Below, piece by piece: positions 7,282 to 49,869 of a stretch of 64,000 nt of DNA. The notes under the pieces were generated by a model, which was not told where the DNA came from, did not search any database, and worked only from the letters and a program-made list of their open reading frames with translations. Position 1 is the first letter of the stretch; each line of letters starts with the position of its first letter. The position numbers were made by a program, and so were the translations under genes. The stretch comes from an uncultured Holophagaceae bacterium (lineage in GTDB: Bacteria; Acidobacteriota; Holophagae; Holophagales; Holophagaceae): NCBI GenBank assembly GCA_903937385.1, contig CAIZZF010000001.1:62001-126000 (forward strand), written 5' to 3'.

Positions 7282-8886
7282 ATGCCCCTGCCGCCCGCGC
7301 CTCCCCCCCAGGTCCAGCTGCTCTCGGGGGCCGACATCTGGGTGGGCCAGGGCCTCCTGAAGGGCCAGGGCGTGCTGATCAAGAAGGACCGCATCCTGGC
7401 CGTGGGCGCCATCGAAGCCCTTGCGAAGAAGCACCCCACGGCCAGGCGTGTGGAATTTCCCGGCGGCACCCTGTTGCCGGGGCTCATCGAGGGCCACGCC
7501 CACGTGGGCGGCCTGGGCGCCCTGAGCCGGCAAGTTGACCTCACGGGACTGGCCAGCCTGCCGGAGACCCTCCGCCGCATCCGGGACTGGTCCGAGGCCC
7601 ACCCCCAGGGCTGGCTCCAGGGTCGAGGCTGGGATCAGAACCGCTGGCCCGCCGGGGCCTATCCCCGGGCCCAGGACCTGGATGCCTTCACGGGCTCACG
7701 GCCGGTCCTCCTGGAGCGGGTGGACGGCCATGCCGCCTGGGTGAACACCGCGGCCCTGGCCGTGGCTGGCATCGGCCCCAATACACCGGATCCCGAAGGC
7801 GGCCGCATCCTCAAGGACGCCGCCGGCCGACCCAGCGGCATCCTCCTGGACACCGCCGTGGAGCTGGTGCGGAAGCATCTTCCCGCACCCACGCCTGCCG
7901 AGCGCGAGGCCCAGCTGAAGGCGGGCCTGACCGCCCTGCGGTCCGAAGGTTTCACGGCGGTAGCAGACATGGGCGTGGACGGCCCCGAGCTGGCCGCCTA
8001 TCGGCGCCTGGCCGCCGCAGGTTCCCTGCCCATCCGGGTCTTCGCCTACCTGAGCCACGACCACGACCTCATGCTCCGCGAACTCAAGCCGGGTCGGCCG
8101 AAGCAGGTGTCCTTCTTCCAGGTGCAGGGCGTGAAGTTCTACCTGGACGGCGCCCTGGGCAGCCGCGGCGCCCGCCTATTGGCGCCCTACGCCGACGAGC
8201 CCGGCACCCGGGGCCTCTGGGTCACGGAGCCCCGCAAGGTTGCCGCCGACGTGGCCATCACCCTCCGCGCGGGCTACCAGCCTGCCATCCACGCCATCGG
8301 CGACGCCGCCAACCGGGCAGCCCTGGACCTCCTCGCCCAGGCCGCGAAGAAGGGCAAGGGCGCTCTGCCCCCGCGCATCGAACACGCCCAGATCGTCACC
8401 GCCGAGGACGCGGCCCGCTTCGGCAAGCTGGGCGTGGTGGCCAGCGTGCAGCCCGTCCACTGCACCTCGGACCACAGCTGGACCCCCGCCCGCCTGGGCC
8501 CCGAGCGCCTGAATGAGGCCTTCCCCTGGCGCAGCTTCGCCACCGGAGGCGCCCTGCTGGCCTTCGGCAGCGACGCCCCCGTGGAGGATCCCAACCCCTT
8601 CGTGAGCCTCGCCGCCGCCGAGACGCGCCTGGATGACCAGGGCGACCCCGCCGGCGGGTTCCTGCCGGGCCAGCGCCTGTCCCGCGTCGAGGCCATCCGG
8701 GCCTACACCGCGGGCAACGCCGCGGCCCTGGGTCGGGCGAAGGACCTGGGCACCCTCCAGAAAGGCGCCGTGGCCGACCTGCTCTGGGTGCAGGCCCCCC
8801 TCGCCGACCTCAGCCCCGAAGCCCTCCGCAAGCTGCGCCCCGGCAGGCTGTGGGTGAACGGAGTAGAGGCCAACCTGGGCAAGTGA
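7282..8886 (+). CDS. YtcJ-type amidohydrolase (amidohydrolase family 3)
   Basis: A 534-residue cytoplasmic metal-dependent hydrolase. Visible family motifs: the metal-binding HAH in [11 protein letters not shown] (about residue 75), [14 protein letters not shown] carrying the FxDG-x-xGSR signature of YtcJ-like proteins, HAIGDAAN, the RIEHAQ motif, SVQPVH and the late metal ligand in FGSDAP. The C-terminal beta-sandwich region ends with [13 protein letters not shown], normal for the superfamily. Related enzymes hydrolyse N-substituted amides or formamides, but the substrate of this one cannot be told. It starts at an ATG 75 bases from the divergent mutase start. A repeat element follows its stop codon. 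Confidence 0.85.
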
Positions 8887-15029: not shown

Positions 15030-15263
15030 TTTAGCTGTCGGCTATCAGCTGTCAGCTATCGGTGAAAGAAGGGCGCGGATGGGTTCTGCGGACCGCTCCA
15101 GGACCTGCCTGTATGGGTCGCAGCCTAGCTTTGGCTGACAGCTGATCGCTGATAGCTGTCGGCTGTCAGCTGTCAGCTGTCGGTGAGGGAAGGCGCCAAA
15201 GGCCTGATCGTGTGGGTCGGGGCCCATCCTTGGCTGAGAGCTGATAGCTGACAGCTGATACCA
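15030..15263. repeat. Heptanucleotide-based intergenic repeat block
   Basis: Between guaB and pyrC are three clusters of 7-base units of the form AGCTGTC/AGCTATC (first and second clusters) and their near reverse complements AGCTGAC/AGCTGAT (second and third). Clusters are separated by two related spacers of about 80 bases: each begins GGTGA-(A/G)-(G/A)GAAGG and ends with a CC(A/T)...TTGGCTGA-type stretch. Units with opposite orientation can pair into long hairpins. The block looks like two diverged copies of one palindromic element. Confidence 0.65.
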
Positions 15264-36277: not shown

Positions 36278-36784
36278 CTAGTTGGTCTTGCGGGTCTGGG
36301 CCTCGAGATAGATGGAGAAGGCCTCGGGCTTGGCGGGCGGGGCGATCTCGAACCTGACCGTGACGAGACCTTCGGCCTTCTTCAGGTGGCTCAGGCGGAA
36401 GCGCGGGCCGGGGGCGGGCTCGCTGGTGAAGGCGACGCCGCCGGGCACCTCGACCACCCGGTAGCGGATGACGTGGCCTTCGTTATCCAGGTAGTGCGCC
36501 TTCAGCACGCCGCCCTCGCTGAAGAGGCTCATGAGGTCTTCGTGCCGGGAACCGGGCCGGTCCTTGGTGGCGGCCATGTCCGCGTGGCTGCGGCGCACCA
36601 GCACCTTGCCGTCCAGCTCGAAGCGGAACGACGCCGCCCCCGAGGTCTGTCCCGGCAGCCCCCCACCCTCACCAACCCACTCCCCCACCAGAAAGCGCAG
36701 CGGCGCGAAGGCATCCGCCGCTGGCGGCGCCTGCGCCAAGAGCACCGGGACCACCGCAACCAGGGCCAACATCGCTGCTCTCAT
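36278..36784 (-). CDS. Secreted hypothetical protein (lipocalin-like pattern)
   Basis: A 168-residue protein with a signal peptide (MRAAMLALVAVVPVLLAQA). The mature sequence begins with FAPLRFLVGEWVGEGGG, the L-x-x-L-x-G-x-W-x-G-x-G start seen in small beta-barrel families such as DUF1579 or lipocalin-like proteins, and continues with alternating strands (ASFRFELDGKVLVRRSHAD, VLKAHYLDNEGHVIRYRVV). No function is known. The start at 36784 is supported by GGAGG seven bases upstream. It is convergent with ccsA. Confidence 0.75.
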   Translation of the reverse strand: MRAAMLALVAVVPVLLAQAPPAADAFAPLRFLVGEWVGEGGGLPGQTSGAASFRFELDGKVLVRRSHADMAATKDRPGSRHEDLMSLFSEGGVLKAHYLDNEGHVIRYRVVEVPGGVAFTSEPAPGPRFRLSHLKKAEGLVTVRFEIAPPAKPEAFSIYLEAQTRKTN

Positions 36785-36837
36785 GGACACTCCTCCATTC
36801 CAGCTAGGATGACCGCAAAAGGGTCGCCCAAGTGGCC

Positions 36838-36870
36838 TCCCACAGGCGCCAAGAACGCCAAGAAATGCAT
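36838..36870. repeat. Fragment of a dispersed intergenic repeat (left)
   Basis: CACAGGCGCCAAGAACGCCAAGAAATGC is a type of oligopurine-rich repeat with 'GCCAAGAA' units. A related inverted stretch (GGCGCCTTCGTGTCTTTGTGGTGG) is at 37047-37070. They flank the cloverleaf-like structure. Confidence 0.4.
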
Positions 36871-36925
36871 GACCCCTTGGGTGGGGCCACGAGGCACGCA
36901 TCAGCGAGGGGCAGACAGCCTGACA

Positions 36926-37034
36926 GCACGGGTTGTATCCCGGGGGCGCCGGGGCTGCGCTTCTTGGGACGCGACTCCGGCGCCCCCGGGGTCACTTCCG
37001 GCTGAGCCGGAAGTCGCCTTCGGCGGACCCGTGC
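36926..37034. other. Cloverleaf-like nested inverted-repeat structure
   Basis: An outer perfect 8-bp stem GCACGGGT / ACCCGTGC (36926-36933 with 37027-37034) encloses three hairpins in a row: a perfect 14-bp stem (36939-36952 with 36977-36990, 24-base loop), a perfect 10-bp stem (36994-37003 with 37005-37014, 1-base loop) and a 4-bp stem (37015-37018 with 37022-37025). It lies in a 460-base gene-free gap. It does not look like a tRNA. It could be a structured RNA, a repetitive extragenic palindrome array or a mobile palindromic element. Confidence 0.6.
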
Positions 37035-37137
37035 GGGATGTGTCGGGGCGCCTTCGTGTCTTTGTGGTGGATCAGTTCATTACAACCCAGGCACCGGGCC
37101 GCAGGAATGGGACCATGGGGGCCAATTCCACTGCTTG

Positions 37138-37190
37138 ATTTATCGGTGTTCATCAGCTTTTTTAGGTGTTCATCGGTGGCTAAAGCTCGT
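37138..37190. repeat. Short direct repeat of an intergenic repeat type
   Basis: GGTGTTCATCAG and GGTGTTCATCGG occur about 24 bases apart, separated by a T-run. No gene lies in 36785-37243 apart from the repeat and hairpin structures described. Confidence 0.4.
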
Positions 37191-37243: not shown

Positions 37244-38656
37244 TCAGGAAAGCCGAGTCGTTCCCAGGAGGCCGTCTGGATCCAGGTGCGCCTTGATCGC
37301 GCCGCTGACGGCCTTGACCGCAGCGGGGGTGTAGGCCTCGTAGAACCGCTGGTTGTGGGGGCCCACGCCGTGCTCGGCGCTGTAGCTGCCCTCGAAGCCC
37401 TTCACGGCTAGGTCGTAGATGCGGGCCTGGAGAACCGGCACCAGCTCCGCAGCGGGGATCGGCGCGCCAGCCTCGGTCCACACCAGGTTCAGGTGGGTGC
37501 CACCGTCGCCCCAGTGGCCGAAGTCGCAGCAGCGCACGAAGGGGAACTCCGCGGCCAGCAGGGCCCGGGCGGCGGCGGTGAAGGCGGCCATGCGGCTGCG
37601 GGGCACGCTGATGTCGAAGGCCAGCACCTTCCCCTCGGCCCGCAGGCCTTCGCTGATGTGGTGGCGGATGGCCCAGAAATCCTCGGGCTTGCCCATGAAG
37701 ACATCGGTGATGGCCTCGCCGGACTCTGTTTCGAGGAAGGCGCCGAGCCGCTCCTCCAGCAGCGCTGGCAGGTCCAGGGCCGTGGCGGGCAGGGTCGAGG
37801 CCAGCTCCACCAGCACGGAATAGGCCGGTGGCGGCGCGGCACCGAAGGGGTTCCGCAGCTGGTCGTGGTGCTTGAATACCGGTCCCATGGCCTCGGCGCT
37901 GATGGCCTCGAAGGCCGTGAAGACGTCGGCCAGATCCCGCTCCAGGGCCCGCAGCAGGGCCAGGGCGGCCTCCCCGGAGGCGCAGCCTACCAGGGCCGCA
38001 GCGCGCTGGCCGGGCACTGGCACCACCTGGACCACGGCCCCGGTGATGACGCCGAGGACCCCGCTGGTGCCCACAAACAGCTGCTTGGCATCCAGGCCGG
38101 TGTTGTTCTTGCGGAGCTGGTTCATGGCCTCCAGCACGGTGCCGTCGGCCAGGGCCACCTCGATCCCCAGCAGGTTGTGGCGCACGTCCCCGTACTTGAG
38201 CAGCCGCGTGCCGCCGGTGTTGGTGGCGATCATGCCACCGAGGGTAGGATCCGCGCCCAGGTCGATGGGGAACATCAGGCCGTGCTCGGCCAGGGCCGCA
38301 TTCAGGGCGCTGAGCAGCACGCCGCCGTCCACCCGGGCGGTGCGGTTGACGGGGTCGATCTCCAGGCGCTTATTCAGACGCTCGAGGCTCAGCACCGCCA
38401 TGCGGCCGCTGGCGTCTGGCGTGGAGGCACCCACCAGGCCCGTGTTGGCGCCCTGGGGCACCACGGCCACACCCGCGGCCCGGCAGGCGGCTAGGGTGGC
38501 CGCCACCTGCTCGGGCGTGGACGGACGCACCGCCAGCAGGGCCACGCCCTTGCCGTAGCGCCAGCCCTCCTGGTAGCGGACGAGGTCGTCCGGCTCCGTG
38601 AGCACGGCGTCATCGCCGAGCAGGTGGCGCAGTTCGGCCGCAAGGGGGCTGGTCAT
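37244..38656 (-). CDS. FAD-linked oxidase (GlcD / D-lactate dehydrogenase type)
   Basis: A 470-residue flavoprotein of the VAO family. The FAD-binding half has VRPSTPEQVAATLAACRAAGVAVVPQGANTGLVGAS, GADPTLGGMIATNTGGTRLLKYGDVRHNLLG and TGLDAKQLFVGTSGVLGVIT; the C-terminal half has the catalytic HWGDGGTHLNLV and AEHGVG. Such enzymes oxidise 2-hydroxyacids (D-lactate, glycolate, 2-hydroxyglutarate). Its ATG overlaps the murD stop (ATGA, 38653-38656), so it is translationally coupled to a cell-wall gene, an unusual partner. No iron-sulphur GlcF-like gene is adjacent. Confidence 0.9.
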   Translation of the reverse strand: MTSPLAAELRHLLGDDAVLTEPDDLVRYQEGWRYGKGVALLAVRPSTPEQVAATLAACRAAGVAVVPQGANTGLVGASTPDASGRMAVLSLERLNKRLEIDPVNRTARVDGGVLLSALNAALAEHGLMFPIDLGADPTLGGMIATNTGGTRLLKYGDVRHNLLGIEVALADGTVLEAMNQLRKNNTGLDAKQLFVGTSGVLGVITGAVVQVVPVPGQRAAALVGCASGEAALALLRALERDLADVFTAFEAISAEAMGPVFKHHDQLRNPFGAAPPPAYSVLVELASTLPATALDLPALLEERLGAFLETESGEAITDVFMGKPEDFWAIRHHISEGLRAEGKVLAFDISVPRSRMAAFTAAARALLAAEFPFVRCCDFGHWGDGGTHLNLVWTEAGAPIPAAELVPVLQARIYDLAVKGFEGSYSAEHGVGPHNQRFYEAYTPAAVKAVSGAIKAHLDPDGLLGTTRLS

Positions 38657-49824: not shown

Positions 49825-49869
49825 CCACTTATTCCCACTTGAATCCACTTTGTTCCACTGAGAACCACT
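49825..49869 (-). promoter_or_regulatory. MraZ box: five AGTGG repeats at exact 10-base period
   Basis: On the minus strand AGTGG (mostly AAGTGG) occurs five times with starts exactly 10 bases apart (plus-strand CCACT at 49825, 49835, 49845, 49855, 49865), 54-98 bases upstream of the mraZ start. Known MraZ operators are three to four short G/T-rich direct repeats with 10-base period, so the layout fits with one extra copy. Confidence 0.85.

Follow-up and report, generated by a model that had tools for sequence, protein, structure and literature searches.

MITEs are non-coding, bear terminal inverted repeats, are found inserted one within another and are present at some sites and absent from others. 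REP sequences and REPINs, with their RAYT transposases, are short, palindromic, intergenic, dispersed and non-coding, number more than 100 copies (PMC2817692, PMC3116915, PMC3733652), and are marked by a GTAG/CGTC foot (PMC3733652). The intervening sequences of 23S rRNA, which have S23/IVP genes, combine terminal inverted repeats with a long stem (PMC4990558).

The stretch of DNA analysed here (the window) comprises 64,000 nucleotides of an uncultured Holophagaceae bacterium, and its positions 36844-37069 are a single copy of a repeat element made up of a core and two arms, which shares features with each of these systems. The element is non-coding, shows nesting and differs in presence between sites, as MITEs do, and it also has terminal inverted repeats (the median left-versus-right arm score is 34 within a copy, against 18 for arms of other copies and 16 for shuffled arms). 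Unlike those of MITEs, its terminal repeats consist of ~9-nt units in arrays, and the unit sequence differs among copies; no parent transposase is known for it, and the same kind of ends instead holds a gene for a PD-(D/E)XK nuclease of the GxxExxY family (TIGR04256, PF13366 PDDEXK_3), which the window copy lacks. It differs from the 23S rRNA intervening sequences in lying outside rRNA, in having no gene in the window copy and in its unit of ~9 nt rather than 7.

With REP/REPIN sequences the element shares its small size, palindromes, dispersal and intergenic position, but it is ~220 bp long, has a core of four helices and arms of tandem units, and reaches up to 28 copies. The sequence-only reading had pointed to a search for a REP-associated Y1 transposase (PF01797); this gene is missing from the window's genome and from 37 of 41 genus genomes, and the Y1 genes in the other four have their own IS200-like hairpins, only ~20 bp of which are alike. 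The GTAG/CGTC foot is absent from the window core, and none was seen by eye to be conserved in the subfamily consensuses. We judge it very improbable that the element is REP/REPIN-like and owes its movement to a Y1 (RAYT) transposase. Two further candidates were set aside: an integron attC site (GTTRRRY...RYYYAAC), because AAC is absent near the core's 3' end and the 5' motif is not conserved between subfamilies, and a tRNA or tRNA-derived element, for which ARAGORN returned 0 matches.

Structure and conservation of the cloverleaf core

The element occupies a 453-bp spacer between two minus-strand genes (Table 1), the gene-free gap of the sequence-only reading. That reading had described a cloverleaf with an outer 8-bp stem and three hairpins of 14, 10 and 4 bp, and each of these is present, the 14-bp stem at 36939-36952/36977-36990 and the 10-bp stem as a 10-nt inverted repeat at 36994-37003/37005-37014. 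The minimum free energy of the 109-nt fold at 36926-37034 is -84 kcal/mol, whereas shuffles average -54.9 (z -7.8; 0 of 200 shuffles as low).

Table 1. Features of the window copy and its surroundings, in window coordinates
Feature	Coordinates	Strand	Basis or remark
Neighbour gene, 170 aa, without Pfam match	36278..36790	-	5' end towards the element
Left arm, two 9-nt units CGCCAAGAA	36847..36864	+	
Small hairpin between left arm and core, ATGGCCCC..GGGGCCAC	36869..36890	+	subfamily A consensus
Conserved cloverleaf core, 112 nt: outer stem and three hairpins	36925..37036	+	fold, copies, covariance
Outer stem, 5' side	36926..36933	+	pairs with 37027-37034; double-sided changes in 3/8 pairs (helix 1)
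Hairpin 1, long and most variable	36937..36992	+	17/22 pairs changed on both sides
Hairpin 2, ACTTCCGGC-NNN-GCCGGAAGT, nearly invariant	36994..37014	+	partly ascertained by search pattern
Hairpin 3, CGCC-TTC-GGCG	37015..37025	+	fold and alignment
Outer stem, 3' side	37027..37034	+	pairs with 36926-36933
Right arm, inverse array of ACGAAG/ACAAAG-type units	37049..37069	-	
Subfamily-A extension past right arm, CATYCCAACCC...CATGGGAYC	37074..37125	+	subfamily A consensus
Adjoining array of CACCGATGA-type units	37139..37180	-	unit type also beside the genome's only GxxExxY gene
Neighbour gene, FAD-binding/FAD-oxidase (GlcD-like)	37244..38656	-	3' end towards the element

The fold is conserved across copies while its letters change. 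In an alignment of 61 sequences, 95% of the cells of its 43 pairs are paired, 40-49% of them with the partner slid by 1-3 columns, and 22 of the 43 pairs show changes on both sides. Such double-change cells number 171, against 38.5 in shuffles that ignore kinship (0 of 500 shuffles as high). The compensatory changes that the sequence-only reading had proposed to look for are thus present, and its view that the structure goes beyond a terminator or a single REP is supported. The scanning pattern included hairpin 2 together with the foot of hairpin 3, so that the near-invariance of both is partly ascertained; the outer stem and hairpin 1 lay outside it.

Copies, range and genomic context

The window's genome (3.68 Mb in 30 contigs, Geothrix-like, Holophagaceae) yielded one near-full copy in a DNA search, together with several remnants whose hairpins are deleted. 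A covariance model made from 61 diverse copies raised the count to three full copies, at the window (C1), C17:10006 and C17:28846, which supplies the copy number that the sequence-only reading had wished to see. With the same model the core is found in 33 of 47 genus genomes, at up to 28 copies per genome, and among 149 phylum genomes only members of the genus carry it. The isolate G. fermentans DSM 14018 is one of the carriers. A pattern scan of GTDB gave, among the matches listed, Holophagaceae/Geothrix records only, and the core pattern was not found in viral contigs.

None of the 153 distinct copies checked lies inside a predicted gene, and both orientations occur. Where both neighbours are close, the spacers are codirectional in 66 cases, convergent in 35 and divergent in 20, and in the codirectional spacers the core runs opposite to the genes in 42 and in the same direction in 24; these context counts are rough, as genes were called by a simple script based on codon usage and some copies sit at orthologous places. 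In several species cores occupy corresponding places near panB, panC, panD, an RNase E/G gene and other genes (L332, L333, L334, L335). The damaged core copy at L333 contains a long mono-G tract near 7407-7437.

These data bear on the possibility, also raised by the sequence-only reading, that the element is a structured RNA, namely an sRNA gene or a 3'-UTR/terminator-like element that has spread and is retained because of its RNA fold. The compensatory changes and the cores at matching places by panB, panD and neighbouring genes are what such an RNA would show, as is the excess of G-U over A-C cells on the + strand (101:46); however, when counted per column, the preference of G-U over A-C is not significant (19:11, p 0.20). 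The mixed orientation relative to the flanking genes and the differing presence of the core between close species also speak against this reading, and a search of Rfam with the core returned nothing at the gathering score, with weak sub-threshold matches only. We retain a structured RNA as a rival and regard it as quite unlikely.

The presence of copies varies from species to species. Many relatives lack the window element in the corresponding spacer, and two genomes (G003 and G030) have a different inverted-array element at its spot. A nested insert of roughly 400 bp is present in one locus (L141) and absent from another (L144). Three copies of a further genome (G023) were compared with the window's genome (G000), G003 and G030, with flanking genes mostly 84-97% identical, and at one site ~460 bp in G023 correspond to only ~50 bp in G000 and G003. 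No clear target duplication could be read at the empty sites, where the spacers are highly diverged at the junctions. These comparisons are made at species level in a genome set that includes metagenome assemblies, and they suggest, rather than display, movement of the element. Its many copies, their presence and absence at homologous spacers and their nesting support the "mobile unit" of the sequence-only reading, while its alternative of a retro-transposed unit found no evidence. We consider it very likely that the repeat is a mobile element whose structure is conserved.

Arms of short tandem units

The flanking inverted fragments of a dispersed repeat noted in the sequence-only reading are real, although their limits shift slightly to those of Table 1. 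They consist of short tandem units of ~9 nt in inverted arrays (9-nt period in core flanks, 0.33 vs 0.27). The arms agree within each copy as inverted repeats, the unit changing from copy to copy, and in the window copy the left and right arms carry different unit variants. Unit families include CGCCAAGAA, CACGAAGA, CACAGAGGA, CACCGATGA, CGCAGATGA, CACGGAAGA and GACGGGGAT, and arms without a core are also present in the window's genome. One unit type, CACAGAGRACACAGAG (repeats of CACAGAGGACACAGAG kind), extends to 26 of 149 phylum genomes in 18 genera, and its reversed control pattern gave 0 matches in every genome listed in that phylum scan.

Three remnants (L003, L005 and L006, at G000:C19:76844-76983, C21:33643-33768 and C20:47124) have lost core hairpins, the expected outcome of replication slippage across hairpins. 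One may ask whether mutation alone keeps the fold: in a repeat that is otherwise inert, slippage and hairpin-templated repair (quasipalindrome correction) would hold arms and stems self-complementary. This would account for arms that are alike within a copy and unlike between copies, and for the clean hairpin deletions in L003 and L005. However, the core sequence itself is conserved genus-wide, beyond symmetry, and neither the copies in new spacers nor the tie between arm and nuclease types described below would be explained. We hold this reading to be unlikely.

Other arrays were seen alongside. IVP genes (four-helix-bundle, PF05635) occur in 14 of 41 genus genomes and in many cases are flanked by inverted arrays of 7-nt units (L112, L113, L119, L121, L126 and others). 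The window itself has inverted arrays of 7-nt units of the AGCTGTC/AGCTATC type at 15030-15260, with no gene inside, and this unit type also encloses IVP (23S_rRNA_IVP, PF05635) genes in several genus members. At 49825-49860 stand four CCACTT/CCACTG repeats spaced by ~10 nt, which we take to resemble an MraZ-type operator.

Association with the GxxExxY nuclease family

Four species share a gene cluster in which two cores flank the gene for a GxxExxY protein of 122 aa (PF13366, TIGR04256). As this arrangement represents a single ancestral site, it was not counted as proof, and the association was assessed more widely. Of 101 GxxExxY loci of the genus, which form 32 site clusters, 74 lie within inverted arrays, the corresponding figure for control genes being 12 of 238 (odds ratio 52). 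An array was called at an arm score of at least 32, a cut-off fixed on the first 40 loci (26 of them in arrays) before the set was enlarged. An initial arm test, which omitted the 60 nt beside the gene, gave a median of 21.5 for own and cross-pairs alike and about six clear cases; it showed no excess because the arms often lie within those 60 nt, and the excess appears once flanks begin at the gene.

The type of nuclease follows the type of arm. With one locus per site (23 sites), nuclease identity and arm similarity are correlated (Mantel r 0.59, p 0.0002), a class-free test that supersedes our classing of arms by regular expressions (66% vs 39% nuclease identity). Core arms resemble GxxExxY arms of the same genome more than permuted ones (26.8 vs 21.5, p 0.018), and the copy numbers of cores and GxxExxY genes correlate (rho 0.41, p 0.004, uncorrected for kinship). 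The single GxxExxY gene of the window's genome adjoins an array of CACCGATGA units, the type found also next to the window element at 37139-37180. Units with GxxExxY also vary in presence, one species having a unit that others lack between flanks 80-91% identical. The PD-(D/E)XK residues D68, E78 and K80 (D...ExK) are invariant in 21 GxxExxY sequences, and TIGR04256 is matched at E about 1e-38 to 1e-41; a predicted structure was set aside (pLDDT 40). Among six plasmid GxxExxY loci from other phyla, similar arrays were seen by eye in two, from Persicobacter (L471, score 24) and Bernardetia (L474, score 30), both below the cut-off. Relatives of GxxExxY were not found in viral contigs, a PADLOC search gave no match, and open-licence literature barely mentions the family and describes no role for it.

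We propose GxxExxY as the mover of the element because its genes lie within arms of this kind and vary in step with arm type. This assignment is tentative. An equally real possibility, to which we give roughly one chance in three, is that another enzyme, of the host or of a mobile element, moves the repeat and that GxxExxY is cargo of the same arm kind. Several genomes have GxxExxY without a core, and cores occur in genomes in which GxxExxY was not found (G012, G063 and G005, from assemblies 58-86% complete), the latter favouring another mover, as do the tandem-unit arrays that enclose IVP genes too. Against this, GxxExxY type follows arm type across unrelated sites, which would be unexpected for a passenger unless both simply descend together.

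Interpretation and significance

Taken as a whole, the repeat is probably a mobile DNA element, non-autonomous and built around a structured core, that GxxExxY may mobilise, and it is known so far from Geothrix-like Holophagaceae only. Its inverted arms could pair into a long hairpin that would serve as the recognised end structure, the element would be mobilised in trans by a PD-(D/E)XK nuclease of the GxxExxY family, and the cloverleaf may be a conserved structure for recognition or protection that works at the DNA level. If so, it could belong to a previously undescribed class of mobile DNA, which we put forward with some reserve, whose ends are formed by short tandem units in inverted arrays, with a GxxExxY nuclease of its own for every unit family, and whose cloverleaf members are non-coding dependents. 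The repeat units returned unrelated matches only in open-licence literature, which is weak evidence of novelty.

What began as an isolated cloverleaf is now a mobile family whose copies can be counted, whose structure is conserved and which has a candidate partner. Were the new class real, it could account for an orphan nuclease family as well as for common, so far unexplained intergenic repeats, a wide reach because arms of this kind occur across the phylum. If the link with the nuclease holds, it would provide a function for GxxExxY proteins and an origin for the widespread intergenic repeats of the CACAGAGGACACAGAG kind.
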